The position numbers and the translations under genes were made by a program. Below are positions 10,264-31,854 of a stretch of 64,000 bases of DNA, piece after piece. The stretch lies in contig NZ_JAGTAR010000002.1 in NCBI RefSeq assembly GCF_018156225.1, positions 186,001 to 250,000 of the forward strand, read 5' to 3'. Source of the stretch: Carboxylicivirga sediminis. GTDB taxonomy: Bacteria; Bacteroidota; Bacteroidia; Bacteroidales; Marinilabiliaceae. Under the pieces are notes generated by a model, which was given only the letters and a program-made list of their open reading frames with translations, did no database searches and was not told the DNA's origin. The stretch's first letter is position 1. Each line of letters starts with the position of its first letter.

Positions 10264-12651
10264 TCAGAAAGAAACATTCTCCACCTCCTTAAACGTCCGG
10301 TAACTGGGCGCATAAGTAATGTTTTTACAACGCTCAATCAGTTCATTCACTTGCTCATGAGTAATTTCATTGTTGGTGATGTAGGGAAACTTAATCATCG
10401 GATGTTCCATAAAGAATCCGGGAATATTAGCTTCATCCATGGTTTTGCCTTCCGGTACCCAGCCATTAATCCAGTTTGGCATGTATTCTTTCAGTAATTC
10501 GCGGGTTTCTGTATTATCCCATAGCTCTTTGGCAAAAGTATATTTATCCACCATCATTGGTACTTGCTGAGTGGATTCCAACTCAAACTGTGCTTTCAAA
10601 CGAATATCGCGCGATGAGGCCGCTGCCATAACTTCAAAACTGCCACTCTCTGCAATCCACATATCCCGTTTGGCATCATAGTATGAGAAATCGCGACCGG
10701 ACAGCTCGAAGCTCACTTCTTTCGTTTCGCCCGGTTGCAGTTCAACTTTAACAAAGTGCTTTAGCTCTTTTTCAGGGCGTTGCAGGGTACTTTCAAGGTC
10801 GCTGACATAAAGCTGTACTGTTTCTTTACCTGCTATTGCACCTGTATTCTTTACTTTTAAGCTGACTACCAACGCATCCTTATCGCTTATTTTTTTAGCG
10901 GACAATTGAATATCGGAATAATCAAATGTGGTGTAAGACAATCCATGACCAAAAGGAAACAGTGGTTCAATCTGCTTCTCATCGTAATAGCGATAGCCCA
11001 CAAAGATACGCTCACCATAGAGCACATTGCCCTGCTCACCCGGGAAGTCAAAGGCAGCAGGCGTGTCAGCCAGTTTAACAGGGAATGTTTCTGCCAGCTT
11101 ACCAGAAGGATTGACGGTTCCAAACAATACATCGGCCACAGCTCCTGCGCCTGCCTGTCCACCCAACCAGGTTTCTAATACTGCAGGTACTTGCTCAATC
11201 CAGGGCATAGCCACTGCACTGCCATTGGTTAAAACAGCCACTGTGTTATTCTGTATTTTTGCCACTTCAGCTATCAACTGATTATGTGCAGCCGGCATAT
11301 CAATGTGTTTGCGATCAATGCCTTCCGACTCATAATGCAACGGTAATCCAGCAAAAACCAAAGCGACATCAGACTCTTTTGCCAATTGCACAGCTTCCTC
11401 AATCATGGTGAAATCATTATCATCCTTCAGGTTATAACCCTGGGCATAACTTATTTTCACTCCTTTACCATATTCCTTTTTGATGATATCCAACACATTA
11501 TCCAATTGGGTCGGCTTCACCTCTGAACTGCCGTTACCCTGGTAGCGCGGATTAGCTGCAAACTCACCAATGATGGCAATCTTTTTGTATTTATCTTTAC
11601 TCAAAGGCAGCACAATTTTATTGTTTTTAAGCAATGTAATGGCCTGCCCATGTACCTCGCGAGCAAATTGATGATGCTCCTCCTCCTTTTGATCAACATC
11701 TTCTTTATCAAGCGACTTGGCTTTTAATACCACCATCAGTATTTCTTTCACCAGATTATCAAGAACCGCTTCATCTAATTCGCCCTCCTGAACTGCTTTA
11801 AGCAGTATCTCATCATTAACACTGCTCACATGCGGCATTTCGATATGCATGCCTGCTTTAAGAGCCGCTACACGATCCACCACCGCAAACCAGTCAGATA
11901 TGACAATCCCTTCAAAACCCCACTCTTCTTTCAATAAGTTGGTTAGCAGATACGGACTTTGCGTACCATACTCGCCCTGCACCCTATTGTAACAAGCCAT
12001 TACCGTCCATGGCTGCGCCTTCTTAACGGCAATTTCAAATGGTGTCAGGTAAATTTCATGCAGCGTGCGTGTATCCACATCGGAGTTCATAAACATGCGC
12101 ATGGTTTCAACATTATTAGCCACAAAATGCTTGAGCGAAGTACCCACGCCCTGACTTTGCACACCATTGATGTAAGCTGCTCCCAATTCACCCGACAGAA
12201 TAGGATCTTCAGTGAAATATTCGAAGTTGCGGCCACCTAATACCGAACGCTTGATATTGACGCCTGGCCCCAGCAATACATTCACACCTAAAGCCTGACA
12301 TTCCTCCCCCAAAGCTTGTCCCACTTTGTAAATCAAATCCGTATCCCAGGTGGCGGACAAAGCTGAGGCCGTTGGGAAACAAGTGGCCGGATGCTGATCG
12401 CCATAACCAGCTTTGTTGGTAGCAGGAGCCCGTCTTAGGCCATGAGGTCCGTCAGCCATCCATATCCATGGAATATCCAGTCGTTCGATGGGTTCGGTAC
12501 TCCAATCGTCGCGACCAGAACAAAGCGAAACCTTTTCCTCGAGCGTCAGTTCAGACATCAACTTATTTACTTTATCTTCCAACTCTTTATCCTGAGCTGA
12601 TAATGACAATGCGGCCATAAACACAAATGTTAGTATACCTACAAGTCTCAT
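10264..12651 (-). CDS. Secreted GH3 beta-glucosidase/glucan glucosidase (1)
   Basis: Glycoside hydrolase family 3, 795 residues, removing terminal beta-linked glucose from oligosaccharides. Signal peptide at 1-19 ending SLSAQ, so periplasmic or outer. The N-terminal TIM barrel contains KHFVANN (Lys174-His175) and the nucleophile Asp253 in IVISDWFAV. A (beta/alpha)6 sandwich follows and then a fibronectin-III-like domain (about 590-685). A further C-terminal stretch of about 100 residues is of the kind seen in BglB-like GH3 enzymes. Start ATG at 12651, 21 bases after the transporter stop, so it is the last gene of the beta-glucan locus. Its sequence differs strongly from the other GH3 enzymes here, so its linkage preference may differ too. 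Confidence 0.93.
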   Translation of the reverse strand: MRLVGILTFVFMAALSLSAQDKELEDKVNKLMSELTLEEKVSLCSGRDDWSTEPIERLDIPWIWMADGPHGLRRAPATNKAGYGDQHPATCFPTASALSATWDTDLIYKVGQALGEECQALGVNVLLGPGVNIKRSVLGGRNFEYFTEDPILSGELGAAYINGVQSQGVGTSLKHFVANNVETMRMFMNSDVDTRTLHEIYLTPFEIAVKKAQPWTVMACYNRVQGEYGTQSPYLLTNLLKEEWGFEGIVISDWFAVVDRVAALKAGMHIEMPHVSSVNDEILLKAVQEGELDEAVLDNLVKEILMVVLKAKSLDKEDVDQKEEEHHQFAREVHGQAITLLKNNKIVLPLSKDKYKKIAIIGEFAANPRYQGNGSSEVKPTQLDNVLDIIKKEYGKGVKISYAQGYNLKDDNDFTMIEEAVQLAKESDVALVFAGLPLHYESEGIDRKHIDMPAAHNQLIAEVAKIQNNTVAVLTNGSAVAMPWIEQVPAVLETWLGGQAGAGAVADVLFGTVNPSGKLAETFPVKLADTPAAFDFPGEQGNVLYGERIFVGYRYYDEKQIEPLFPFGHGLSYTTFDYSDIQLSAKKISDKDALVVSLKVKNTGAIAGKETVQLYVSDLESTLQRPEKELKHFVKVELQPGETKEVSFELSGRDFSYYDAKRDMWIAESGSFEVMAAASSRDIRLKAQFELESTQQVPMMVDKYTFAKELWDNTETRELLKEYMPNWINGWVPEGKTMDEANIPGFFMEHPMIKFPYITNNEITHEQVNELIERCKNITYAPSYRTFKEVENVSF

Positions 12652-12672: not shown

Positions 12673-14394
12673 TTATTCAATACCTATCTGATTTCTTCGT
12701 TCCTCCAGGTCTGCCTGCATTTGCTTACTCGTTTTTTTATCGATGGTGTAAAAGAACAGTAATGCAGCACAGGACATGTACAAGATGCCTGGTATCACCG
12801 AAATCATTAACTTGATACCTGCAATAGTTTCTGCCGTCTGAACAGCATTAGCTTCGAACTTAAACAGTACCAGCAGCCACCCGGCTAAAGCACCACCAAT
12901 ACCCCATCCGGCTTTTTGTGCAAAGGTAGCAGCTGAAAATACCAATCCAGTTGCTCGCTGCCCTGTTTTCCACTCGGTGTAATCGGCTGTATCGGCCAGC
13001 ATCGTCCATAATAGTACAACTGCAGGAGCATACGTGAATTTGGCAAGCACATTAAAAGTGTATATCAGTGTGTAATCTCCGGCTTCAGGAATATACAGCA
13101 AGGCAAAGAAAATACCTGATAGAATAGTACTCGCCATGAACACATTGCGGTTGCCAAATTTTCGTGCCAATGGTTTAGCTATTGGCAGGCCAATAATGAG
13201 GGCAACACTGCTTACCACATTAAACAGCTGCACATTTTCTTCGGTACCAATGTAGTACTTAAAATAGTAGGCAATCGATAAGTTCTGTAAGGCAAACATT
13301 ATGAAGGACACAATCCCTACAAGGGCCAGCACGACCCAAGGCCTGTTCGACCCAAGATTTTTAATATCGGACCAGATGCTTTGATTCGGATTACGTGGTG
13401 GCGCTACCCTTTCTTTGGTTGAAAAGAAAGTGATGAGGAAAAATACCACACTCATAAAACCAAGAACGATAAGCGTATATTGATACCCTTTAGCTTTGTC
13501 CACCAGGTTATCATTTGCCCTAACATCAATGACTGACTCGCTTATTCTGGTATCGATATAATGCACATCCTCGCGGGCAAGCGGATAAGGTATAACACCC
13601 GCTTCTTTGACCTGTTCTTTTATGGCAGTTGAGTCAAAAGCTACTACTACACCGCCATAGTCAAGCGTGTCATTAGGTGAAGGTGACACAACAACATATA
13701 CCACACCTTCTGTAATATTATTATCAGCATCCTCAATGGTATATATCAGGGTATCAATTCCTGCAAATCCGGCATTAAGCTGATATTTGAGGCTGTCATT
13801 GTTAATAACTTCCACATATCCGCCTTTGGTTTGTGGTTCATTGACTTGAGTGGTAAACTCGCCCTTACCAAAATAAATAGCCATTGAAAGCGCCAGACCA
13901 GTAACTATCAGCTGTCCCGAGAACGCACTAATGAAACGGTAAGTATTAATGCCGGCCCTTTCATTGGAGTCGGATGTCATGACTGCCATTAATGATGAAT
14001 ATGGCAGGTTGATGGCTGTATAGGCCGTCATCAGTAAGAAATAAGTAACGGCGGCCCAAATAATTTTACCAGTATAACTCAGGTCTGGCGTGGTAAAGGT
14101 TAACACAGCCAGTATAGCATAAGGCACAGCCGTATACAAGATATATGGTCGAAACTTTCCCCATCGTGTATTGGTGCGATCGGAGATAATACCCATCAGT
14201 GGATCGTTTATCATATCCCACACACGGGCAATGAGCATGATAGTACCCGCTGCCGCTGCCGAAATACCAAAAGTATCGGTATAAAAAATGAGGATCCAAA
14301 AACCCACCATGTCCCATACAAAATGGGAGGCTGTATCGCCCAGGCTATAGCCCAGCTTTTCTTTAAACGATAATTTAGACGCTGTTTTATTCAT
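12673..14394 (-). CDS. GPH-family sugar:cation symporter with a periplasmic Ig-like insertion
   Basis: Major-facilitator carrier of the glycoside-pentoside-hexuronide family, 573 residues, inner membrane; imports sugars or short oligosaccharides with a cation. Family motifs are GYSLGD, ARVWDMINDPLMG and RWGKFRPYI. About 12 helices can be traced. Between helix 5 (ending about 175) and helix 6 (starting about 304) lies a hydrophilic insertion of about 125 residues that the other GPH carrier in this locus lacks. It contains LKYQLNAGFAGIDTLIYTI and later SVIDVRANDN, which resemble the two ends of a cadherin/Big_9-type Ig domain. With the N-terminus in the cytoplasm this loop faces the periplasm. 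It sits between GH16 and GH3 genes with gaps near 20 bases. Carrier assignment is strong; the insertion's nature is my reading of the sequence. Confidence 0.9.
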   Translation of the reverse strand: MNKTASKLSFKEKLGYSLGDTASHFVWDMVGFWILIFYTDTFGISAAAAGTIMLIARVWDMINDPLMGIISDRTNTRWGKFRPYILYTAVPYAILAVLTFTTPDLSYTGKIIWAAVTYFLLMTAYTAINLPYSSLMAVMTSDSNERAGINTYRFISAFSGQLIVTGLALSMAIYFGKGEFTTQVNEPQTKGGYVEVINNDSLKYQLNAGFAGIDTLIYTIEDADNNITEGVVYVVVSPSPNDTLDYGGVVVAFDSTAIKEQVKEAGVIPYPLAREDVHYIDTRISESVIDVRANDNLVDKAKGYQYTLIVLGFMSVVFFLITFFSTKERVAPPRNPNQSIWSDIKNLGSNRPWVVLALVGIVSFIMFALQNLSIAYYFKYYIGTEENVQLFNVVSSVALIIGLPIAKPLARKFGNRNVFMASTILSGIFFALLYIPEAGDYTLIYTFNVLAKFTYAPAVVLLWTMLADTADYTEWKTGQRATGLVFSAATFAQKAGWGIGGALAGWLLVLFKFEANAVQTAETIAGIKLMISVIPGILYMSCAALLFFYTIDKKTSKQMQADLEERRNQIGIE

Positions 14395-14416: not shown

Positions 14417-15214
14417 CTATTTCTGGTAAATTCTTACATAATCCACTTCCATTGTTTGTGGGAAAACTATGGTATCGATGCCTTCAACACTTCCCCATGC
14501 GCCACCTACTGCCAGGTTCAACAACAAATAAAAAGGTTTCTCGTATGGCCATTTATCTTCACCCAATCCTTCATTGGCATAGACAAAGTACTGTTGGTCA
14601 TCCACAAAAGCTTTTAAAGAATCAGCTGTCCACTCAAGTGCATAGGTGTAAAATAAGCTATCTACATGAGGAATCTTAACCGTTGCCGTTTGCTGTGTAC
14701 CAGCCTGCCACTGATAGTCTTTGGAATGAGCAGACGCATGAATGGTTCCTAAATCATAGCCCACATGTTCCATGATATCTATCTCACCAATATTGGGCCA
14801 GTTTCCGTCGTTGAAGGTCCAGCCGCCAGGCATCATCCATATGGCCGACCAGGTACCAATCCCTTTGGGCAGCTTTGCTCTGACTTCTAAGCGACCATGC
14901 TGCCAGTCGGCTTTTGACATTAAGCGGGCTGATGTAAATTCCTTCCCTTCATAAGGTTCATTGACCGCTATGATGTGTAGTTTCCCATCCTCTACCCAGG
15001 CATTCTCTTTGCGAGCCTTGGTATAAAACTGTGCTTCATTATTACCCCATCCGTGAGGATTGCCTTCCTGATCATAAGCCCACTTGCTTGAATCGGGCAA
15101 ACCCACGTAATCGAATTCATCCTGCCAAACCAGTTTGTACTCATTATATTCCTGACAGGCTGATAGCCAAACCAGAATAACGATGCTAACAGCTACAATA
15201 TTGAATCGTGTCAT
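14417..15214 (-). CDS. GH16 laminarinase-type lipoprotein (1)
   Basis: Endo-beta-1,3-glucanase-type family 16 enzyme of 265 residues. Lipobox LSAC at Cys20 indicates lipidation, so it is likely on the cell surface or in the periplasm. The single catalytic domain has the family 16 signature GEIDIMEHVG with nucleophile Glu144, Asp146 and acid/base Glu149. WGNNEAQFYT and the C-terminal MEVDYVRIYQ are also typical of laminarinases of this subgroup. It lies between the two transporter genes (gaps 17 and 22 bases). Its closest relative in the window is the GH16 at 26541-27344, which suggests duplication within the locus. Confidence 0.94.
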   Translation of the reverse strand: MTRFNIVAVSIVILVWLSACQEYNEYKLVWQDEFDYVGLPDSSKWAYDQEGNPHGWGNNEAQFYTKARKENAWVEDGKLHIIAVNEPYEGKEFTSARLMSKADWQHGRLEVRAKLPKGIGTWSAIWMMPGGWTFNDGNWPNIGEIDIMEHVGYDLGTIHASAHSKDYQWQAGTQQTATVKIPHVDSLFYTYALEWTADSLKAFVDDQQYFVYANEGLGEDKWPYEKPFYLLLNLAVGGAWGSVEGIDTIVFPQTMEVDYVRIYQK

Positions 15215-15231: not shown

Positions 15232-16680
15232 TTATGCCTCTCCCTGGTGTTTCACTTTCCCTCTGCGTGCAATTAGCTTGTTTTTTATTTCATTCGCCTT
15301 TTCTTCAGTTATATCGTAATTCTTCATCACGACGATGGCAATAACTCCGAATAGGATGGGTATAACTATGTCGGCAATGCGGAGCCTTGTCATGGCCTCG
15401 GCCGACTGCACTTTTATGTCTTCATTAAATCCGATATAATGCAACACTACACCACTTACAAACATGGCAATTGATTGGCCAATCTTTGTCATCCACCAAT
15501 ACACGGCACCAAACATGGCCTCACGGCGTTCACCGGTATTTAGTTCATCTAAATCACACACATCGGCTGTCATCGACATCATTAGTGTAAATAAACTCCC
15601 AATACCAAAAGATAAGAACGGAATAGGCATAAACATCAGCCATGGCATTTCTGGATAATTAAATCCCCACCATTTTAATATATAGCCCACAAAGGATATT
15701 AATGTAGCAATAATGAAAGCGTTCTTTTTCCCGTATTTTTCGGCAATTTTAGTAATGATAGGTATTACAATAAACATGGTACCCAAGGCACTGACCGACC
15801 CAAAAAGGCCAACCCAGATATTGGCTGACTCCTGATTACCATTAAACCAGAAGTAGACAATTATATACATAGCGAATTGCGCAATAATCTGAAAACCATT
15901 AAATATAAGAAAGGTGGCTGCACATAATCTTAAAAAGGGCTTATTAACAATGGTGAGTTTAATCCCTCTGAAAAATTCCTTGATATTTTCCTTTAATTCT
16001 TCTTTGGATAAATTATGCTTACTTTCCTGTTCAGGGACGATTATTTCTTTATTGAAGAATGCCGGCAGGATTCCCAGAACCATACAAATTGCCCCTACCC
16101 ATATGGCAATTGTTTTGGCTCCTTGAGGAGCACTTTCAAAAATTGTTGGCTCATATATAATCACCCAAAGCCATGGCGCAATGACCCAGGCTATTTGTCC
16201 CATAAACTGTGAAATTGCCATCAATCGGGTGCGCTCATTATAGTCAGGTGTCATTTCATAACCTAACCCAATTAAAGGTGTAGCGAAAATGGTGTAACCG
16301 ATGTAAAAGAAGATGGAGACAATTAAAAAGTAGAAGAAATTGTAAAGCTCTGAATTTTCAGGATTTAATTGCCACATAATCATATATGAAACACCGGCAA
16401 TCACACTTCCTATAAAAATATAGGGTTTTCTTCTGCCCCATTTCGACTTGGTATTATCCGAAATATATCCCATTAAAGGATCTGTAAGGGCATCAATAAT
16501 TCTTGGCACGGCCAACAGGGTGCCCACCAATATTGGATTCATACCCAGCGACATGACCAATACAGCCATACACATTGTCAGAGCTGCCGGAAATAGTTGA
16601 TTGGCCAAATGGCCCGAACCAAAGGTTATTTTCTGAATAGTAGGAACTTTGTCTTCCTTTGCTATTTTAATGGCGTTCAT
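15232..16680 (-). CDS. GPH-family sugar:cation symporter, standard length
   Basis: Inner-membrane carrier of 482 residues with about 12 helices and no large insertion. Family features are ALTDPLMGYISDNTKSKWGRRKPYI and a short acidic loop between the halves (IIVPEQESKHNLSKEELKENI, in part). The TADVCDLDELNTGERREAMFGA motif near helix 10 is typical of GPH proteins that take up glycosides. It follows the GH17 lipoprotein gene after 57 bases and precedes a GH16. Probably brings glucose oligosaccharides from the periplasm to the cytoplasmic phosphorylase and GH17 enzymes. Having two differing carriers suggests different chain lengths or branching; that is inference. Confidence 0.92.
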   Translation of the reverse strand: MNAIKIAKEDKVPTIQKITFGSGHLANQLFPAALTMCMAVLVMSLGMNPILVGTLLAVPRIIDALTDPLMGYISDNTKSKWGRRKPYIFIGSVIAGVSYMIMWQLNPENSELYNFFYFLIVSIFFYIGYTIFATPLIGLGYEMTPDYNERTRLMAISQFMGQIAWVIAPWLWVIIYEPTIFESAPQGAKTIAIWVGAICMVLGILPAFFNKEIIVPEQESKHNLSKEELKENIKEFFRGIKLTIVNKPFLRLCAATFLIFNGFQIIAQFAMYIIVYFWFNGNQESANIWVGLFGSVSALGTMFIVIPIITKIAEKYGKKNAFIIATLISFVGYILKWWGFNYPEMPWLMFMPIPFLSFGIGSLFTLMMSMTADVCDLDELNTGERREAMFGAVYWWMTKIGQSIAMFVSGVVLHYIGFNEDIKVQSAEAMTRLRIADIVIPILFGVIAIVVMKNYDITEEKANEIKNKLIARRGKVKHQGEA

Positions 16681-16737: not shown

Positions 16738-17796
16738 CTATTGCATCATGGCTTTTTTAGGTGTTCTATCTATATTAAACAGCCCCCAGTGTTTTTCAGC
16801 ACCTAAGGGGTTATCAGGGTTTCCTTTCCAGTCTTCATCAAAAGCCTCAAAAAAGAAAGTGGTTATATTCATTTCTTTTGCCCAGTTCATTAGCTCGTTG
16901 TAATAGCGCAACTGCTTTTCTTCGCTGGCACGTTCACCAAATTCTGAGGCCACAGAAGCCCAGCCGGCCTCACTGATGACAATCCTACAATTTGGCAGTG
17001 CCTGTCGCACTTTTTCTACATTAGCAATCGAATAGGACAATGCTTCATCAATATCTTTTCCTTCCCATACCGGGTATAAATGAATGGAAATAAAATCAAG
17101 CTCACGAGCTAATTGTTGACCCTTTGCCGCCCACCATTCATAGTTTTCGGCTACTGTAACGGGTTGTTTTACGGCCGCTTTCACTTTTTGGCAATAGGCA
17201 ATAATGGAATCTGTTTCCACCAGATGATCATTCCAGTCTACTAAAGCTTCGTTGCCCACATTAACGGCCGCCACAATGCTTGGATATTGGTTAGCCAGTT
17301 GGATGCCCCGCTCAATTTCCTGTTGGTTATCCAGCCTGTTTTTAGTCAACACCTCATCGGCAATAGGTTCTGTCAGCCATGAACAGCCCTCATGGTTGCT
17401 CAGTTCGGCTTTTAGCCATATGCCCAGCATGACTTTGACAGGTAGTGAATGCTCTTTAATTATTCGGAGCACAGTCGCAGAATTCTCCTGTGAATCATAC
17501 ACGCGAATCAGGTTAAAAAGAGAGTCCTTGCTGATTATCTGTAAATCCTCCAGTATCTGTTTATCGGTCGGCCAAACCGCACCATCACCTCTATCAGGAT
17601 GCTGTCCTGTTCTGAAACCGGAATAGCAAACAGCCCTGTGGGTGCCTGCCAGCAAGTCACTTGGTTGTTGCAGAACCGCTGGTGTTTCTTTTACAGGCGA
17701 CTCCTGCTCTTCTGCTATATCCCTTTGAATTTTACACCCTACAACACTGAACATCAGGGCACTGATTAAAACAACTGCTTTTATACGATTCATCAT
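16738..17796 (-). CDS. GH17 beta-1,3-glucanase lipoprotein
   Basis: Family 17 endo-1,3-beta-glucanase-type TIM barrel, 352 residues from the ATG at 17796; a second ATG follows at 17793. The frame extends to 17814 only through a TTG. The signal peptide ends in lipobox SVVGC, so the enzyme is a lipoprotein. The acid/base Glu is in NVGNEALVDW and the nucleophile Glu in VISEAGWAS; both are intact. HLYPVWEGKDIDEAL is shared with the next GH17 gene, so the two are paralogs. It starts 14 bases after the stop of the neighbouring GH17. It is the only one of the three GH17 enzymes here with an export signal. Confidence 0.9.
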   Translation of the reverse strand: MMNRIKAVVLISALMFSVVGCKIQRDIAEEQESPVKETPAVLQQPSDLLAGTHRAVCYSGFRTGQHPDRGDGAVWPTDKQILEDLQIISKDSLFNLIRVYDSQENSATVLRIIKEHSLPVKVMLGIWLKAELSNHEGCSWLTEPIADEVLTKNRLDNQQEIERGIQLANQYPSIVAAVNVGNEALVDWNDHLVETDSIIAYCQKVKAAVKQPVTVAENYEWWAAKGQQLARELDFISIHLYPVWEGKDIDEALSYSIANVEKVRQALPNCRIVISEAGWASVASEFGERASEEKQLRYYNELMNWAKEMNITTFFFEAFDEDWKGNPDNPLGAEKHWGLFNIDRTPKKAMMQ

Positions 17797-17810
17797 GTGT
17801 TTAAATTTTC

Positions 17811-18770
17811 TCAAACTCTAGATTTTTTCATTTCTATTAATTCGGGATATAGTTCCTGCATCACTTTCTTTGGCTTTCTATCGACAGTGAATAATCCCCA
17901 ATGTTTCTCAGGCTCCATGGGTTCTGGCGAGCCTTTCCATGGCTCATCGAAAGCTTCAAAAACAAAGGTCATTACTTCCTCCTGCTCACTCCAGTTCACC
18001 AAATCATTATAATACACCTCTTGTAACTCTTCACTCACATTCCAGGGCTCAATACCTCTCCCATTTGAATTAGTAGCCCAGCCAGCCTCGGTTATCACAA
18101 CAGGTTTGTGTGGATATTTTTCGGCCACGCCATTGTAATTCTGACGGGTATATTCCAGGGCCTCATGTATGTTTTTATACTCCCACACCGGATATGTGTG
18201 GATGGAAATAAAATCCACTTCTTCGGCCAGTGCCTTAAGTTTGCTATGCCATGGCAGATAATTCTCACAAAATGTTACAGGCTGGCGGGCTCCTTTCTTC
18301 ACCATTCGCACATAATCAATCACTGAATCAACCGACACATAATGGTCGGTCCAATCCACCGTTGCCTCATTGCCAACCGAAAGCGAAAAGATGATATCAG
18401 GATACTGATTGGCCTGCGTGATGAGCTTCTCAATCTGTTTTACATTTCTTACCTTATTCTCTTTGAGTTGTTCCTCGGCATATATACCTCCCCAGGGACA
18501 CCCATGGTTATTGACTTCTGCACCTATATAAGCTCCCAGCATCACCTGAAAGTCCAGTTTCTCTGTACGAATCACATCCAGCACCAAGTCTGTTTGTTTA
18601 TCGCAATCGTACAAACGCAGGTACTTCCAGTTTTTAGAAAGAATCAGTAAATCCTCCTTTACCTGGTCATAATCTGGAAACACACCTGTATCCGGGCTTT
18701 GCCCATGACGAAAGCCCGAATAGCAAATGGCATTCCCCGATTTAATATTTATTAATTCACTTAATTTCAT
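17811..18770 (-). CDS. GH17 glucanase, probably cytoplasmic (1)
   Basis: Family 17 enzyme, 319 residues from the ATG at 18770. An SD-like GGAAGAGAG lies just upstream on the - strand, inside the longer TTG-started frame, which favours this start. There is no signal peptide. The acid/base is in SVGNEATVDW and the nucleophile in VITEAGWAT. SIHTYPVWEYKNIHEAL parallels the lipoprotein paralog. Missing export and the neighbouring cytoplasmic phosphorylase suggest that it acts on imported beta-1,3-gluco-oligosaccharides. Some GH17 enzymes of this size act as exo-enzymes or transglycosidases rather than endo-glucanases, so the exact action is open. Confidence 0.88.
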   Translation of the reverse strand: MKLSELINIKSGNAICYSGFRHGQSPDTGVFPDYDQVKEDLLILSKNWKYLRLYDCDKQTDLVLDVIRTEKLDFQVMLGAYIGAEVNNHGCPWGGIYAEEQLKENKVRNVKQIEKLITQANQYPDIIFSLSVGNEATVDWTDHYVSVDSVIDYVRMVKKGARQPVTFCENYLPWHSKLKALAEEVDFISIHTYPVWEYKNIHEALEYTRQNYNGVAEKYPHKPVVITEAGWATNSNGRGIEPWNVSEELQEVYYNDLVNWSEQEEVMTFVFEAFDEPWKGSPEPMEPEKHWGLFTVDRKPKKVMQELYPELIEMKKSRV

Positions 18771-18798
18771 TTCGCTCTCTTCCAATCCCCCAAATGAC

Positions 18799-19686
18799 TT
18801 ACTTATATTTTAGTTGCTCATGCTTATCCCACAGTCCCCAGTAAGCTCCTACATCACCTTCGGTACCCGTTTTCCAGCTTTCATCAAATGAAGAGAAATA
18901 AAACATGTCGATATCGTCTTCGCGCGACCACTTTTGCGCATCGATGAAATACTTAAGCGCATTTTGCTCTGATGGCTGTGCCCCATGAAAAGGCATTCCT
19001 TTGCTTGGCCAGCCGGTTTCTGTGATTATCACTTTTTTGCCGTTGGCTGCCTTCACAGCCCTTCTGTACATATCTTTCATATAGAGCAAGGAATACTCCA
19101 GGCTACATCCTTCCCAGAATGGGTAACAATTGGCCAGAATCACATCGCATGCTGCTGTAATAGCCGGACAGTTCTCAAACTCATAATATGCATCAACATA
19201 TCCAACCGGAATATCCTTCACACTGCCTTTTACCTGGTTAATGTGAAATAGCAGCTCCTCTTCTGTTAGATCTTTGCGATACAACACTTCGTTACCAACA
19301 GCAATCACATCGGCATAACCATTGTGTGCCAATTCAATTAATCCCTCTATTTCCTGTTGGTTAATTGCTTTGTCTTTGCCCAACCATGCACCAACCAGGG
19401 TTTTAATTCCCATTTCCTTGGCAATCACTGCAATCAGCTCATTGCCCTCGGTGCACGAAAAGGTTCTGACCCACTTAATGTAAGGACGAATGATGCTTAA
19501 GCGTCTTCTGACCTGCTCCTCATTCAGTTGGTCACCTGGCTTTTGCCCTTCTGCATATGGACTGATGCATAAACCATGCAGGCCACCTTTTAACACATTC
19601 TGAAAAAGATTAATTAACTCATCATAAGACATCGCAGAAATATTAACTCCTACTAATGACATGACATATTCGTTCCTTACTGACAT
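18799..19686 (-). CDS. GH17-like glucanase, probably cytoplasmic (2)
   Basis: Divergent family 17 protein, 295 residues, start ATG at 19686. There is no signal peptide. The TIM barrel begins near GLCISPYAEGQKPGD. The acid/base Glu lies in AVGNEVLYR and the nucleophile in IITETGWPS, both present. NCYPFWEG replaces the HLYPVWEG/HTYPVWEY of its paralogs, and the sequence is clearly further from them than they are from each other. It lies directly after the hairpin behind the phosphorylase gene and 28 bases before the next GH17. Likely acts on imported glucan fragments. The more SPYAEGQ-like N-terminus resembles the yeast/plant-like GH17 branch, so chain-length preference may differ. Confidence 0.86.
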   Translation of the reverse strand: MSVRNEYVMSLVGVNISAMSYDELINLFQNVLKGGLHGLCISPYAEGQKPGDQLNEEQVRRRLSIIRPYIKWVRTFSCTEGNELIAVIAKEMGIKTLVGAWLGKDKAINQQEIEGLIELAHNGYADVIAVGNEVLYRKDLTEEELLFHINQVKGSVKDIPVGYVDAYYEFENCPAITAACDVILANCYPFWEGCSLEYSLLYMKDMYRRAVKAANGKKVIITETGWPSKGMPFHGAQPSEQNALKYFIDAQKWSREDDIDMFYFSSFDESWKTGTEGDVGAYWGLWDKHEQLKYK

Positions 19687-19748: not shown

Positions 19749-22700
19749 TTATTTAAACTTTACCTGTATCGATTTAACCTGGGTGCTGCGGTTAAAAATC
19801 ATTGCAGACATCTCAGCATTGATGGTATGACCATTGAATTGTTTATGTTCACCATCAACCATTGTAATCAGCACCTCATTAGCCTGGCCTTTTGAATAAA
19901 CTACCGGTATTTTGCAAATGGTAAAACCAAGTTGACCAGCTTCCAGACTAATTTGCTCCTGACTGTGCTTTGTATCAAAATAGTTAAACACTTCAGGTGT
20001 TGGCAACAACTCTTCCATGTTAAACAAAGCTGTGTTAAAGGTGATTTGGCCATTTTCAACATGCACACCTAATTCTCCCATTCGGGTAATGACATCCTCT
20101 TTCACCTGGCCAGTCATACCTGGTTGCTTAACCCCGGCTCCTCCAGGTGTATGCGAATAAGCATCAGTTGGGAATGCACCATATAATTCAGGTGACTTAT
20201 TCAGTCCTATACCTGCTTTAATCTCATAATAATGGTCCTTCATTCGTCCCAATAAAGCTTCATCGGCATTGGCTTCTACCGCGGCAAAGTAATTCTCCTG
20301 AACGGCCAGCAATAGTTTTGATACCATGTGCCAATAGATACTTCCCAATCCTTCGTAACCATAGAATGTGCCGGAGCGTCCGGTGAATGACTGGTGGTCA
20401 AACATCTCTTCAAAAGTTGCCAGAACATCATCCTTGCATGCTTCAATTAATTCGCCATACTTTGCAACATCAAGGCTGTTCAGCACTTTGTTTAATTCAT
20501 CGGCATTGCGAATGGTACCATTGAAATGATAACCTCCAGTATTATCTTTTGATAAAACGCTGATATTCTTATCCGCCACCAGCTGTTGTAATAAGGCTGA
20601 ATTTTCAACCCTGGCCACCGGTATGTTATTTTTCTCAACAAAAAGAGGCAGCTGTCGGTCTGGATACAGAATATAGCTATATTGGTCTTCGCGGAATAAA
20701 GCACTTGCTTTTAGGGCATCCATTACACTCAGGCTTTCTTCAGCATTTAAATAGCCGGCACTTAACACGGCTACCTGGCCTTCGAGCATTTCGTAGAGGT
20801 AACGCACCGACACACCACCTTCATCAAAAGCGATCAGGTTATAAGCATGGTACAAACCATCGGCACGTTTATTGGCCCGGATGGATTGATCCATATAAGC
20901 CAGGGCAACATCCATAAACTGCTTCAGGTCACTTATATTAATGGTTGCCCTGTTTTCGCTAAACGACTGCGAATAAATCCTGTTTCGATAGGTTTCTCCG
21001 GCTTTTCCTAGCACATCTGCAAACTGCTTTCTTTCGGTGTTGCTGAATCCTTTTTCGGTCAGGCTTACATTCTCAACAAACAAGGTATTAATAGCATCCA
21101 GCAATTCTTTTACTTCTTCTGAAACTGTCAGCTCTTTATGAGTTGATGCTGCTAATTTATCAGACCAGAACTGTAGGAAGCGACGCATGTAATACAGTGT
21201 GACCATAGACACCCCATTACCAACCAAAGCATTATTGGCATCGTTCCATTCCGGACGCTGTGTATTTAACCAGATACCCGCTTCAGGAATAAAGTTGCTT
21301 AATTTAGCCAGCAAGGTCACCAGTACTTTCTCTGTCAGGTTAACCTGGTAAAGACCTCCGGCCTTATTTTCCAGCATGCGGGCATCAGCTCCCAGACCTT
21401 TGACCTTAGCTTTTATTTTATCGTTTAACTCGGCGTCAAATAAAATGGTATCCTGAGGATTAGCCACGATATCGGCATACGGCTTGATGCGATAAGGCAC
21501 ATTGGCGTAAACAAAAATGTCTTTACTCAATAGCTCATCCAGTTTTCCCGGGTGGTATTTCTCAGATAACTCCAATAATTTCTGAAGGTAGATAATCTGG
21601 TGATCGCCCCAGTAGCCGATGTAGGCCCATGGATCGTGCGGATCAGGACATTCCCAATCAATGCCTTCGCGTGTTATGCGATAAGGGTTATAACCATCAG
21701 GTGTTGAGGCATTCACAAACTTAGCAATCATACCTTCGATAAACTCGGGGTAAGACAAGCCCAGCGCTTCCCAGTTCTGGAAGATATCACGCCAGTTACC
21801 CTGATAGTTTAATTTAGGACTGCCATCTTCATTCTTAGCATCAATAGAAAATTGATTCCATGGACGACTCGGATCGCCATGACGGCGGCTAAATGTTAAT
21901 GGCAAATACTCGTATGCAAGGCGTATCAAATCAGCATTACCTGTTTGTTCTGCTGCATCAATCAATGCTTTGTATGTAAGCGTTTCAGGCAAGTTCGCCA
22001 TCCATTCGCCTGCAGTAGTAGCCACAAATTTGTTGTTCTGTTCAACATATAGCTTAAAATCAGCCATGCTTATATTGTAGCCATCATTAAAGATACCACC
22101 ACGCATCACATTAAACATGGTATTTGAAAAATGACGTGCACAACTTAACTCATCATTACCTAACTGCAGACCATCGGCACCAGCAACAATTTCGATTAAT
22201 TTTTTAGTACCCTGCTCAATGTCTTTCTGAATAAGAGCTTCAATGTTGTCTTCTGATTTAATCAGGTCGTTGAGGTTTGCTACATCACCGGCATCTTTAT
22301 TAATATCTGCAACGATGCTCCATTTCTGAGCTTCTTCGGGCTTTAATGACATTTCAGCTATAAGTAGATAAGAGCCTCGTGCAGCTCGTATATCACTTTC
22401 TGTACTAACAGCCTTACCTTGCTTAAACTGAGTAATCTGACGGCCTGAAAGCAACACCTTGTAATTATCTAATCCGTATGACCATACGGTTGTAGTCTTC
22501 AGTGACTCACTCGGCTCAGCTCTGTCCACCGGAATAGAACTTAGAGAAAACAATCCGAGCCCGGTTTCTTCAATCAATTCATTCTTTTTATAGGCATCCA
22601 GCAAGTTGCTGTATTCATTCTGAAAAGCATAATCCAGGCCATATGGCAGGATATTGCGGATACCATCCAGCACTTCCACTTTCAAAGTTGCAGCTCCTTC

Positions 22701-23201
22701 ATTTTGAATGGCTGACGTACGAACAAAACCAAATTGTTCACTATTGTTCCATTGGTATTTAAAGCTTAATCCAAGATCAAGATTAATTTCCTCGAAAATG
22801 ATTTTGTTGCCATAAATACTTTTGTAAATATTTCGGACCGTTTTGTATATATCTTTAGTGATACCTTCGAAAGGCTCCCATAAATACGTTTTGTTATCTT
22901 TCTCGACCAGAACAGCAGTGGCACTGCCTGTTATTCCCTTATAATCATGAATCTTATCATCCGTATAATATGGAAATAAAGCATTGTTACGATCTTTTCT
23001 TCCTGCAGACAATGAACCATTACTTGATAAGAACATCCAATGATCAGAATCGCTTACGATTGACATGAAAAAATCATCCATCTGATCATAGTTGCTAATC
23101 TTATAATACTTCTCATTTTCACAGACTACGAATTGTCCTTCTACTTTCTTTAAGCTTGCGTTTAAATTCGTATCCCCTAAATAGATCTCTCTCGTTTTCA
23201 T
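19749..23201 (-). CDS. Cytoplasmic beta-1,3-glucan phosphorylase (clan GH-Q, GH149/GH161 type)
   Basis: Very large protein of 1150 residues without a signal peptide. Length and architecture (N-terminal beta-sandwich, (alpha/alpha)6 barrel, C-terminal beta domains) fit the inverting phosphorylases of GH149 and GH161, relatives of the GH94 cellobiose phosphorylases. The proposed general acid is Asp654 in RPEWNDANNALVGNG, which lines up with the WNDG motif of GH94. PHDPWAYIGYWGDHQIIYLQ (about 515-535) lies in the barrel. The reaction would be beta-1,3-glucan(n) + phosphate giving alpha-glucose-1-phosphate + glucan(n-1), saving ATP. Its neighbours, an aldose-epimerase-like gene 25 bases upstream and three GH17 genes downstream, support this. 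GH149 versus GH161 cannot be settled by eye. Confidence 0.85.
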   Translation of the reverse strand: MKTREIYLGDTNLNASLKKVEGQFVVCENEKYYKISNYDQMDDFFMSIVSDSDHWMFLSSNGSLSAGRKDRNNALFPYYTDDKIHDYKGITGSATAVLVEKDNKTYLWEPFEGITKDIYKTVRNIYKSIYGNKIIFEEINLDLGLSFKYQWNNSEQFGFVRTSAIQNEGAATLKVEVLDGIRNILPYGLDYAFQNEYSNLLDAYKKNELIEETGLGLFSLSSIPVDRAEPSESLKTTTVWSYGLDNYKVLLSGRQITQFKQGKAVSTESDIRAARGSYLLIAEMSLKPEEAQKWSIVADINKDAGDVANLNDLIKSEDNIEALIQKDIEQGTKKLIEIVAGADGLQLGNDELSCARHFSNTMFNVMRGGIFNDGYNISMADFKLYVEQNNKFVATTAGEWMANLPETLTYKALIDAAEQTGNADLIRLAYEYLPLTFSRRHGDPSRPWNQFSIDAKNEDGSPKLNYQGNWRDIFQNWEALGLSYPEFIEGMIAKFVNASTPDGYNPYRITREGIDWECPDPHDPWAYIGYWGDHQIIYLQKLLELSEKYHPGKLDELLSKDIFVYANVPYRIKPYADIVANPQDTILFDAELNDKIKAKVKGLGADARMLENKAGGLYQVNLTEKVLVTLLAKLSNFIPEAGIWLNTQRPEWNDANNALVGNGVSMVTLYYMRRFLQFWSDKLAASTHKELTVSEEVKELLDAINTLFVENVSLTEKGFSNTERKQFADVLGKAGETYRNRIYSQSFSENRATINISDLKQFMDVALAYMDQSIRANKRADGLYHAYNLIAFDEGGVSVRYLYEMLEGQVAVLSAGYLNAEESLSVMDALKASALFREDQYSYILYPDRQLPLFVEKNNIPVARVENSALLQQLVADKNISVLSKDNTGGYHFNGTIRNADELNKVLNSLDVAKYGELIEACKDDVLATFEEMFDHQSFTGRSGTFYGYEGLGSIYWHMVSKLLLAVQENYFAAVEANADEALLGRMKDHYYEIKAGIGLNKSPELYGAFPTDAYSHTPGGAGVKQPGMTGQVKEDVITRMGELGVHVENGQITFNTALFNMEELLPTPEVFNYFDTKHSQEQISLEAGQLGFTICKIPVVYSKGQANEVLITMVDGEHKQFNGHTINAEMSAMIFNRSTQVKSIQVKFK

Positions 23202-23226: not shown

Positions 23227-24099
23227 TTATATTTCTTTAATCTCGAAAACCCTTTGCCAACGCTCTGTTGCACCTGGCTGAAGGTTAATGTTTTTAAATA
23301 GCTCGGGACTAACCACATGTGCTCGTCCCCACAGATTGATTTTGCAGGGTTTAAAATCGGTTGATTCAGATATTGACAGGTTCAGTTGCTTATCGCTTAT
23401 ACACCAGTTCTGGCCACCATCTGATGGCTCGGCTATGTACTCGAAGAAAAAATCGGATTGAGGGGTTTGAGTAAATTGCAGGTACCCATTGGATGCGAGG
23501 ATACCTCCGGGATTTAATCCGGCATTAAACTGATTCATATCCACCCCAGTTCCAACACTTAAATGAATATCGTCAGACAAAAGTTTTTGACCTGGAGACA
23601 GGAAATTATGCACATATTCAGTTGTTTCAAAAACTTTCTCGCCTATATTTTGAAGCTGGTAGTCAATAATAAAACCATCGTTTTTGATGGTAAATGTTTT
23701 GTTCAGGGTAAAAGGGAAAGGTACCTGCCTGTTAATACACTGAAAAGTGACCGAATCATGATTATATTCAAAGGACATTTGGAAAGGCATAACAGGATAA
23801 TGGCCTGCAAAACTATAAGGTGTATCACTTTCCTTTTTAAGGTGTCCCACCCCAATTTTTGGGAATAATTCGCCAATGCCACATTCTGAATAGCCTATCG
23901 CCTCATCAATACCAAATTCGTTAAAAAAACCTTTTCCCTGTTGGTTGGCTGTACTATTTATCATTTCGGTGGTACACAAAGGCACTTCCTTCCACCACAT
24001 TTGAACTAACTTGCCGGTCCAGTCAAAGCGCGTTCCAAGGTAGTTTTCCCCAGGCTCCTCAAACAGCATCCTTATATGTCCTTTGGCTAATTCAATCAT
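23227..24099 (-). CDS. Aldose 1-epimerase-like protein
   Basis: Galactose-mutarotase-superfamily beta-sandwich protein, 290 residues from the ATG at 24099, with no signal peptide. An in-frame ATG exists at 24153, but the extra 18 codons would be encoded by a terminator-like hairpin (24113-24146), so the later start is much more likely. Visible features are GTRFDWTGKLVQMWW at the N-terminus, FNEFGIDEAIGY and ETTEYVHNFLSPG, where the conserved Glu and His residues of the family would lie. It may interconvert glucose anomers released by the cytoplasmic enzymes. It comes just before the phosphorylase gene (gap 25 bases). Specificity is not known. Confidence 0.78.
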   Translation of the reverse strand: MIELAKGHIRMLFEEPGENYLGTRFDWTGKLVQMWWKEVPLCTTEMINSTANQQGKGFFNEFGIDEAIGYSECGIGELFPKIGVGHLKKESDTPYSFAGHYPVMPFQMSFEYNHDSVTFQCINRQVPFPFTLNKTFTIKNDGFIIDYQLQNIGEKVFETTEYVHNFLSPGQKLLSDDIHLSVGTGVDMNQFNAGLNPGGILASNGYLQFTQTPQSDFFFEYIAEPSDGGQNWCISDKQLNLSISESTDFKPCKINLWGRAHVVSPELFKNINLQPGATERWQRVFEIKEI

Positions 24100-24112
24100 T
24101 AATAAGTTGATT

Positions 24113-24146
24113 AAAACTGGTGGTATAAGGCTATACCACCAGTTTT
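24113..24146 (-). terminator. Perfect 15-bp hairpin between GH3 and epimerase genes
   Basis: AAAACTGGTGGTATA (24113-24127) and TATACCACCAGTTTT (24132-24146) are perfect inverted repeats around the loop AGGC. On the - strand the stem runs out in TTTTAATC. It lies in a 159-base gap inside a same-strand gene series and is the strongest terminator-like structure within the locus. The remaining gap (24147-24258) holds no other clear signal. Confidence 0.85.
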
Positions 24147-24258
24147 CATTCATCCAGTTAATAAAGTCAGCAAAATTTTGTTTCCGACTGAGATTGCTCC
24201 CCTTGCTGCCTTACTATAATTGTCTCAAAAACTACACACTTATTCGCACACTTATTAT

Positions 24259-26540: not shown

Positions 26541-27344
26541 CTAATTATGAGGCTTGCTTTTTTGGTAAACTCTCACGTAGTCGATCTCCATGGTGCTTGG
26601 AAAAATAGACTCATCAATGCCATATTTCCCGCCCCAATGACCGCCTACAGCTACGTTTAAAATCAGGTAGAAAGGTTGGTCGAAAGGCCATTGGTCACTG
26701 CTGGCCTTTGCTTCTTTATGGAACACAAAACACTTGTGCCCATCAATAAAAAACTTGCAGCTTTTCTCTGTCCATTCGATGGCGTAAACATGAAATTCAT
26801 GTTGAGCATCGGCCAGATGCCAGGCTGCTGATTTTTGTGTATTTTTTGTGTGATTGTAGGCACCTGTATGAACGGTACAATAAATTGAGTCGGGCTGATA
26901 GCCAACATACTCCATTATGTCAATTTCGCCACTGGCTGGCCAATTACCATATTCATTCCTAACAGGTAACATCCAGATAGCTGGCCAGGCGCCTTGCCCT
27001 CCTGCTACTTTTGCGCACACCTCAATTCTTCCATATTGCCATTCGCCTTTGCCTTTAGTAATGATGCGGGCTGATGTATATGGTTGAGCTGGATTGCCTG
27101 ATTTTGTAGCTGTGATGTACAGCTTATCATCCTGCACCCAGGCATTTGTTTCATTATGACTGGTGTAGTGCTGTAACTCATTATTCCCCCACTGCCAACT
27201 ATTCCCTTCGGTATCGTAGCTCCACTTTGTTGAGTCAGGTAACCCTATGTAATTAAATTCGTCGTGCCACACCAATTCATAGCCCTCATGCCTGAAGCAA
27301 GAGCTCACTATCAATATAAAAATGGACACAAGGATTACTCTCAT
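26541..27344 (-). CDS. GH16 laminarinase-type lipoprotein (2)
   Basis: Single-domain family 16 glucanase, 267 residues, with lipobox VSSC at Cys16. Catalytic motif GEIDIMEYVG: nucleophile Glu140, Asp142, acid/base Glu145. WGNNELQHYTS and MEIDYVRVYQK are typical of laminarinases. Its sequence is very close to the GH16 at 14417-15214, from the shared LVWxDEF start through the FYLxLNVAVGGxWG end. This suggests an old duplication within the locus. Located between a GH3 gene and the PKD-GH16 gene, with gaps of 25-26 bases. Confidence 0.94.
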   Translation of the reverse strand: MRVILVSIFILIVSSCFRHEGYELVWHDEFNYIGLPDSTKWSYDTEGNSWQWGNNELQHYTSHNETNAWVQDDKLYITATKSGNPAQPYTSARIITKGKGEWQYGRIEVCAKVAGGQGAWPAIWMLPVRNEYGNWPASGEIDIMEYVGYQPDSIYCTVHTGAYNHTKNTQKSAAWHLADAQHEFHVYAIEWTEKSCKFFIDGHKCFVFHKEAKASSDQWPFDQPFYLILNVAVGGHWGGKYGIDESIFPSTMEIDYVRVYQKSKPHN

Positions 27345-27369: not shown

Positions 27370-28461
27370 CTAATTCAGTTCGTAAACCCGCACATAGTCA
27401 ACTTCCATACTCTGCGGAAAAATGGCATTGTCAATTCCCTGGGCTCCACCCCAATTGCCACCAACAGCTACATTCAGAATAAAGAAATGAGGTTTATTAA
27501 AAGGCCAGTTGGCATCATTTTTCTCAGCAGGGGCATAAACATGTACCACATTGTCGGGCGAGTCAACATAAAAAGTCATGGATGTTTCGGTCCATAACAA
27601 ACCGTAAATATGAAACTCCTCTTCGCATGTTGGCAATGACTTACTGCTGCCGTTACCATCGCCTGCATATCCTGCCGGGGTATGCACAGTGGCATGCACT
27701 ACATCCGGTTGATAACCGACGTACTCCATGATGTCAATCTCACCACAAGCAGGCCATCCTACCTGACCCAAATTGGCACCTAACATCCAGATAGCTGGCC
27801 AAACGCCAGTACCTGAAGGTAGTTTAGCACGTACCTCAATACGACCATAGGTAAATTCTTTTTTACCCCAGCTAATCATGCGTGTAGAGGTATAAGAACC
27901 TTGCACTTTGTCATCATTAACTTTCTTGGCAGTCAGAATCAACTTGCCGTCTACTACTTTTGCATTATCACCATTGGTGTAATATTGCAGCTCATTGTTT
28001 CCCCAGCCATTATCACCGGTTCCTACTTCAAACTTCCAATTAGCGGTATTAATAGTCGCACTGTTAAACTCATCAGACCAAATCAATCCTTCCGGATTCA
28101 CATAATCCGGATCATCAGCATCAATAGATATAGTCTTTGTAACTGTTTTGGTATCCGATTCAGTATTCAGATTGCCCCAAAGCTTAAGCGTCACCTCATA
28201 TTCTCCTTTCAAAGGAAAATAGATAGTATGAACTTTGCTTTTATCGGCACTTTTTCCAGTGGACTCATCATTGCCAAAATCCCATTCTACATACAGGTAA
28301 TCGCCAGTTGATGCGTTAGTGAAAATGACCTGATTATCTTGAACATCATAGCTAAAATCGGCATAATAGGTTTCTTTATTATCTTCTTTACTGCAAGATA
28401 AACATGCAGGCAATATAATAGAGATGGCCAATACCTTGAGAATGAGTAGTAGCTTATTCAT
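27370..28461 (-). CDS. PKD-GH16 laminarinase-type lipoprotein
   Basis: Two-domain enzyme of 363 residues. Signal peptide and lipobox near LPAC (Cys20; Cys23 follows). Residues about 32-112 form a PKD-like domain (YVEWDFGNDES and FPLKGEYEVTL), then a family 16 domain from about 125 with GEIDIMEYVG (Glu241, Asp243, Glu246). Probably the surface endo-glucanase that makes the first cuts in laminarin, since the PKD domain would hold it away from the membrane. It follows the surface-binding protein gene after 72 bases that contain a perfect hairpin, so it may be expressed less than the SusCD block. Confidence 0.94.
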   Translation of the reverse strand: MNKLLLILKVLAISIILPACLSCSKEDNKETYYADFSYDVQDNQVIFTNASTGDYLYVEWDFGNDESTGKSADKSKVHTIYFPLKGEYEVTLKLWGNLNTESDTKTVTKTISIDADDPDYVNPEGLIWSDEFNSATINTANWKFEVGTGDNGWGNNELQYYTNGDNAKVVDGKLILTAKKVNDDKVQGSYTSTRMISWGKKEFTYGRIEVRAKLPSGTGVWPAIWMLGANLGQVGWPACGEIDIMEYVGYQPDVVHATVHTPAGYAGDGNGSSKSLPTCEEEFHIYGLLWTETSMTFYVDSPDNVVHVYAPAEKNDANWPFNKPHFFILNVAVGGNWGGAQGIDNAIFPQSMEVDYVRVYELN

Positions 28462-30294: not shown

Positions 30295-30313
30295 AATTAT
30301 CCAGTTTTGCTAA

Positions 30314-31834: not shown

Positions 31835-31854
31835 AATAAAAATCTTTAATCAAA

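Follow-up and report, generated by a model that had tools for sequence, protein, structure and literature searches.

Why would a sugar carrier of the inner membrane hold, within one of its loops, a domain of the kind that is found as repeats in secreted proteins? Of the steps by which Bacteroidota use glycans, passage across the inner membrane has been comparatively little studied, and no description of an Ig-like, cadherin-like, or otherwise periplasmic domain inserted into such a carrier was found in the full text of open-licence papers. The question is raised here by a carrier of the GPH family that is encoded within a 64-kb stretch of DNA, the whole of which is referred to as the window. 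An earlier note on this DNA had pointed to a hydrophilic block in that carrier, residues 176-303, located between the fifth and sixth membrane helices (TM5 and TM6), and both the block and its position are confirmed (Table 1).

Table 1. The carrier, the parts of its insert, and genes of the surrounding locus, with positions counted within the window
Feature	Position	Strand	Basis
GPH:cation symporter with inserted domain	12673-14394	-	573 aa; TIGR00792, MFS_2, MelB-like model
Inserted domain of the TM5-TM6 loop (residues 176-303)	13486-13869	-	Big_9 match, conservation, modelled strands
First half of insert, matching Big_9 profile positions 39-88 (final two thirds)	13669-13866	-	Profile match; five modelled strands
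Linker with conserved FDSTxIK motif and short low-confidence helix	13588-13668	-	Alignment; helix 82-88, pLDDT <50
Second half of insert, similar to the opening third of Big_9 (YPLAREDVHY...IDVRANDN)	13486-13587	-	Profile comparisons; two modelled strands
GH3 glycosidase, signal-like N-terminus (by eye)	10264-12651	-	PF00933 143 bits, PF01915 188.2 bits
GH16, lipoprotein by eye, adjoining the carrier	14417-15214	-	PF00722 73.4 bits; Cys after signal-like N-terminus
Second GPH carrier (GPH2), 482 aa, insert-free	15232-16680	-	MFS_2 240.2 bits
GH17, lipoprotein by eye	16738-17814	-	PF00332 38.5 bits; lipobox-like VVGC
GH17-like, no signal peptide seen	17811-18785	-	PF00332 25.9 bits (below 28.2 cut-off); PF02836 35.5 bits
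GH17, no signal peptide seen	18799-19686	-	PF00332 44.9 bits
GH149 beta-1,3-glucan phosphorylase, 1150 residues, no signal peptide seen	19749-23201	-	NF058639 1733.8 bits versus 1150; PDB 6hq6 E 0
Two GH16 proteins	26541-27344, 27370-28461	-	PF00722 91.6 and 89 bits; second with PKD 27.5 bits
PKD-domain protein, SusD-like, SusC-like (TonB-dependent plug)	28534-34977	-	Same locus

The carrier and its inserted block

By sequence, the carrier is a member of the inner-membrane GPH symporter family. TIGR00792, the GPH:cation symporter model, is matched with 376.1 bits versus a cut-off of 231.35, and Pfam MFS_2 with 343.8 bits versus a cut-off of 27, with both hitting the carrier as two stretches which flank residues 176-303. 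An AlphaFold model of the whole carrier (13 rows; mean pLDDT 74.2, pTM 0.70) has 12 membrane helices, as in the MelB-like 12-helix fold, and aligns with MelB structure 9old over 441 residues with a Z of 40.0 and an rmsd of 3.5. Common to the carrier and MelB, i.e., along with fold and sequence family, are the aspartates D55 and D59 of MelB helix II, which we take to be those of the cation site and with which D60 and D64 of the carrier align. The carrier differs from MelB, however, in having H24 and N129 at the positions of D19 and D124, presumably the galactoside-binding residues of MelB. Nor is it placed among the melibiose carriers by PRK10429, which yields 218.2 bits versus a cut-off of 456. 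From its locus, as considered below, the carrier probably imports fragments of algal beta-glucan.

The block itself, of 128 residues, stands between the model helices 143-176 and 300-325, whereas the insert-free GPH carriers with which it was compared have only 8-13 residues at this place. The other GPH carrier of the same locus, said previously to lack the block and to be about 90 residues shorter, is indeed without it and has 91 fewer residues. With the N-terminus taken to be cytoplasmic, helix count places the loop between TM5 and TM6 on the outside, and with four flanking residues included there are 24 Lys and Arg in the seven cytoplasmic stretches, compared with 3 in the five short stretches on the periplasmic side. 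We infer from the helix parity of the model, with the charge of the short loops in agreement, that the insert faces the periplasm, as the earlier note had suggested.

As to what the block is, its residues 183-234 score 27.2 bits against Big_9 (PF17963; E 7.6e-6), the cut-off being 23.6, and the inserts of three other loci (L112, L113, and L114) in their native order also score above that cut-off. Comparison by hhalign of the first half of the insert with local Big_9 repeats results in a probability of 96.5%. Alignment of the inserts reveals motifs that are invariant across rows, with tyrosine and acidic residues conserved, and the motifs F.GxDT..Y.IED and IDVxANDN are shared with the cadherin-like repeats (Big_9, or tandem-95) that secreted Bacteroidota proteins contain. 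The insert is not a product of chance or of assembly, because it is found in frame and free of stops in eight further genomes of the family; an assembly or frame error as its source is ruled out. Searches of solved structures resulted in no match up to E 10 with the insert sequence and in weak rows only (best E 0.52) with a 10-row insert profile. That the insert is a domain derived from Big_9 we nevertheless hold to be close to certain.

Order of the halves within the insert

The prior description of the block as Ig-like or cadherin-like stands insofar as Big_9 is matched above cut-off, but the domain most likely is circularly permuted rather than in its usual order. The direct match to the insert of the window spans only positions 39-88 of the 89 of the Big_9 profile, with native rows reaching positions 33-88 at most. 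The likeness to the missing start of Big_9 is found instead at the opposite end of the insert, and it is for this reason that permutation is proposed. There, the stretch YPLAREDVHYIDTRISESVIDVRANDN is similar to PVATDDEASTTENTAVSINVLSNDTG, with which the domain begins in secreted repeats from the same bacterial family. The insert would differ from those repeats in being single-copy, in standing within a membrane carrier, and in having its halves apparently swapped, with a linker placed between the old termini.

When the halves are swapped and the linker is omitted, the Big_9 score goes up in four of four rows (from 27.9 to 36.1, 28.5 to 36.2, 35.9 to 43.9, and 37.3 to 42.7 bits), part of which is explained by the shorter query, and these swapped rows match profile positions 13-88, 4-85, 4-88, and 6-88. 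The same is seen without change of length using a local model that was built from 16 Big_9 repeats, taken from secreted proteins which have them in tandem (L017, L018, and L024). Rotation of the block then gains 4.4-10.4 bits in nine of nine rows, and out of 127 rotations the best one begins at an offset of 66-94, i.e., inside the linker or at its edge, though given their shared ancestry these nine rows are not nine independent tests. Against this same 16-repeat model the second half contributes 2.7-8.9 bits on top of the first half. On the opposing side, among 300 shuffled versions of each row, 0-9 attain the score of the swapped order.

One alternative is that the insert is not permuted at all, but instead consists of a truncated Big_9, of which the last two thirds remain, with unrelated sequence after it. 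The limited span of the direct Pfam match is as would be expected of such a domain, and the second half is weak by itself: neither of two second halves, when searched by itself, matched Big_9 in Pfam up to E 1, and by hhalign the second half aligns over 13 columns only, with a probability of 2.3% and with 5 of 200 column shuffles scoring as high (for the complete swapped profile, 9 of 200 do so). Yet the second half alone matches within model positions 1-30, that is, in register, in all nine rows, at 4.0-9.1 bits and with six rows at or above 5.5. Among 13,855 overlapping 34-residue segments from 25 other proteins of the 64-kb stretch, by comparison, only four, all from one protein, reach 4.0 bits in register, and none reach 5.5; with the register condition lifted, 0-49 of these segments equal the scores of the second halves. 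Two predicted strands also stand in the right place. A truncated domain is for these reasons unlikely, and a circularly permuted Big_9 is, from profiles and model together, the probable reading.

Those strands come from an AlphaFold model of the insert alone (10 rows), the confidence of which is medium (mean pLDDT 67.9, pTM 0.62) and which consists, in order, of five strands, the linker with its short helix (residues 82-88; pLDDT <50), and two final strands located in blocks of mean pLDDT 74-75. The earlier note had looked to structure prediction for presence or absence of an Ig fold. Seven strands are predicted. Absence of such a fold is not what is seen, but neither is the fold proven, the best structural match (VIA-align) being a phage collar protein with a Z of 4.7. 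VIA-align of approximately residues 1-65 of the insert gives weak likenesses to a Rib domain (Z 3.8) and, with Z no higher than 3.0, to cadherin domains. Foldseek with the insert model found nothing at E 0.001 or better, with RAD52, which is not an Ig protein, topping its list.

The beta-1,3-glucan locus and possible roles of the insert

The carrier lies in what can be described as a GH149 locus, with GH149 above its NCBIfam cut-off along with a SusC-like plug, SusD, GH16, and GH3. In Bacteroidota, according to excerpts of two papers (PMC5827456, PMC6484121), GH149 genes occur within polysaccharide utilization loci together with sugar transporters and other GH genes, i.e., the same combination as here, and those excerpts do not mention an insert in the carrier. 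Since the phosphorylase has no visible signal peptide, beta-1,3-gluco-oligosaccharides should enter the cell intact. Beside the phosphorylase gene are two further genes, at 17811-19686, for GH17-type proteins that likewise are without visible signal peptides and which therefore are probably intracellular. The gene at 23227-24153 encodes a 308-aa protein that matches no Pfam or NCBIfam family and that adjoins GH149 also in loci L108-L111 and L115.

As proposed, the GPH symporter would bring beta-1,3-gluco-oligosaccharides across the inner membrane to a cytoplasmic GH149 phosphorylase. Upon leaving TM5 the chain would form, within the periplasmic loop, those strands which usually make up the last two thirds of Big_9, and would then pass through a linker of roughly 27-35 residues that connects the old Big_9 termini. 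The strands that usually come first in Big_9 would follow, and the chain would then enter TM6. The insert would lie outside of the transport path and could serve as a docking or positioning module, one which holds a periplasmic laminarinase (e.g., the GH16 or GH17 of the locus), or other partners in the envelope, near to the carrier. We consider this explanation in its entirety, i.e., permuted Big_9 insert, import for GH149, and docking, to be evenly poised between right and wrong.

PepT1 possesses its Ig-like outer domain in the loop between TM9 and TM10. Like the present carrier, it is an MFS carrier of short oligomers that works beside substrate-making hydrolases, and the extracellular domain of PepT1 and PepT2 is described in PMC4597091 as two tandem Ig-like folds, that of PepT1 being proposed to engage trypsin. 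The carrier considered here differs in having but one, apparently permuted domain, located instead between TM5 and TM6, and no common origin is claimed; the likeness extends to the working principle alone. Docking, by analogy to PepT1 with trypsin, is the leading suggestion for the function of the insert, though a tentative one that we hold to be less likely than not. Other MFS proteins, i.e., OCT1 and SV2A, also have an extracellular or luminal domain in an outer loop, and a match of their MFS part to the carrier model was observed, but the loops and the folds of those domains are different ones.

Which partner might be docked can be considered in terms of the neighbors of insert-bearing carriers. 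For the locus counts that follow, one locus (L116, of a Bacteroidales MAG), which begins inside of the insert, was excluded. GH149 is present in eight of nine insert loci, that is, in seven of the eight fetched plus the window; in the exception, L112, the contig begins just ahead of the second carrier. A GH16-like gene, as found by blastp with window proteins, is directly beside the carrier in nine of nine insert loci, with the match in L113 a weak one (39% over 266 aa), versus one of four insert-free sister loci (L118). In L116 a GH16-like frame is located two genes downstream of the carrier, with none immediately downstream. Docking to GH3 is not favored, as GH3 adjoins the carrier in only three of the nine (the window, L108, and L112). 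The four insert-free sister carriers (L117-L120) all have GH149, GH17-like, and GH3-like genes nearby, and because these sisters, too, are found with GH149, the insert is not required for such import, i.e., it is an accessory.

Rather than a protein partner, the insert could bind periplasmic oligosaccharides, passing laminari-oligosaccharides on to the carrier. The locus is built for beta-1,3-glucan, the insert possesses conserved tyrosine and acidic residues, and for Saccharophagus degradans it is stated in PMC12153261 that proteins with cadherin-like domains bind carbohydrate. Tryptophan, however, is absent from ten of ten insert rows, no Pfam carbohydrate-binding family is matched by the insert, and the weak rows of the solved-structure profile search include just two chains of F5/8 type C domains (E 2.8 and 3.7). 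Absence of tryptophan, together with the existence of insert-free sisters in comparable loci, makes it less likely that sugar capture is essential, and we view such capture as rather improbable. Acidic residues exceed basic residues in nine of ten rows, with equal numbers in L113, and a tryptophan-free, acidic composition would suit contact with protein more than stacking upon sugar.

A different kind of partner would be the second GPH carrier, with the insert joining both carriers of the locus as a heteromer, or else anchoring its carrier within a larger envelope complex. A second carrier is present in eight of eight insert loci as well as in the window, versus none of six insert-free GH149 stretches. 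Those insert-free loci are from other families, however, so that the co-occurrence may reflect shared descent. Furthermore, the second carrier seems, from sequence comparison, to have been exchanged between species, which speaks against tight co-evolution with the insert carrier. We hold pairing of carriers to be very doubtful. The second carrier of the window is 94% identical to that of L115 and 68% to that of L108, the corresponding values for the insert carrier being 85% and 96%. In two insert-free GH149 loci from which the second GPH carrier is absent, L117 (1011-2687) and L119 (18456-19901), there are frames that by eye are sodium:solute symporter-like.

Descent, constraint, and other domains in the same loop

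Further GPH proteins with the insert, for which the earlier note had suggested a search along with study of their neighborhoods, do exist. An insert profile at E 1e-8 finds them in nine of 71 genomes of the GTDB family, that of the window included, and insert identity is 43-88% in the seven aligned of the eight other genomes. A scan of named genomes gave nine insert loci, from Carboxylicivirga mesophila, Carboxylicivirga sp. A043, Marinilabilia salmonicolor, M. rubra, Marinilabilia sp. UBA5340, Labilibacter sediminis, and three Bacteroidales MAGs. At E 1e-5, a search across 395 phylum genomes found the insert in no carrier other than that of the window, the five remaining matches not being GPH genes. 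Big_9-like matches located outside of carriers (L028-L032 plus weak ones) are not GPH genes, with no GPH match in 15 of 15 such loci; a sixteenth, L024, was read as an open reading frame only.

In a 77-row tree of the membrane part the ten insert carriers form a single clade (support 100/100) within which no insert-free row is found, and the rows nearest to that clade are without insert (support 87/93, with the tool warning of long branches there). By the NG86 method dN/dS for the insert is 0.06-0.14, as computable for six of ten pairs, four of which have a dS greater than 1, with values of 0.136 and 0.066 for the two that do not. For the membrane part dN/dS is 0-0.03 where computed. From these comparisons, the insert is changing faster than the membrane part, yet is under constraint.

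Might the insert then be a mere passenger, structural or neutral, that is, a rearranged Big_9 fragment which is kept without specific task in a loop that tolerates insertions? Its faster evolution would fit such a passenger, as would the presence of unrelated inserts at the same loop of other GPH carriers, as described below. The constraint upon the insert, its invariant motifs, and a clade without a single insert-free row all speak against it, and we regard a passenger as unlikely, though as a rival of some weight to a docking module.

The insert carrier is no lone oddity, since other Bacteroidota GPH carriers bear unrelated inserts in the same loop. An insert of approximately 82 residues is found between TM5 and TM6 in at least 20 more GPH carriers, one of these in the window's own genome, with 87-93 residues between the aligned membrane parts. 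This group (L003 and L089-L107) was picked by frame length among the matches listed, with L003 added and L172 being one more. Its members sit in a separate clade of 22 rows (100/100). Kinship with Big_9 gains no support from hhalign, which returned probabilities of 0.12% and 0.16%; the copy of L003 matches no Pfam family, and the comparison with solved structures gave weak rows only (best E 0.13). Among 390 genomes of the phylum, at E 0.001, there were two matches, in frames of 539 and 541 aa, both of which are GPH and the second of which is L003. The domain is an uncharacterised one, seen in GPH carriers only. Yet another carrier, L063:1426-3276(+), from a different family of the phylum, has its TM5-TM6 loop occupied by an unrelated block of 142 residues; no GH94 or GH149 is present in its stretch, and one neighbor is ribokinase-like by eye.

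A gene for GH149 or GH94 is found within the stretch for 29 of 31 insert carriers (window included) versus nine of 33 insert-free ones, the latter covering 33 of the 39 insert-free tree rows and including one weaker GH94 match (L147; 533 bits). As the inserts belong mainly to two clades, and so are not independent, this association is not used as a test, and the idea that an insert signifies a neighboring phosphorylase was set aside. More speculatively, the TM5-TM6 loop of Bacteroidota GPH carriers may be a recurrent docking site, one at which at least three unrelated, probably beta-rich domains would have been gained independently, coupling, much as does the outer domain of PepT1, the periplasmic release of oligosaccharides to their import for cytoplasmic phosphorolysis. 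We think that generalization unlikely as it stands.

A carrier with its own outer domain suggests that periplasmic hydrolysis and import may be physically coupled, and the carriers of phosphorylase pathways, which need intact oligosaccharides, are a place to look for such coupling. With unrelated domains recurring in a single loop, what was an oddity becomes a testable rule. To protein engineers, a natural circular permutation that plugs an Ig domain between two membrane helices should be of interest as well.

Among carriers with the approximately 82-residue domain, a GH94 gene adjoins the carrier in 21 of 21 loci among the matches listed, i.e., 20 single-copy loci plus L088, whose carrier has two copies of the domain in tandem (56.3 and 42.3 bits). 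The closest solved relative of the GH94 copy in L125 is cellobiose phosphorylase 3qde (E 0). One row of the same clade, L062, is insert-free and also stands beside GH94.
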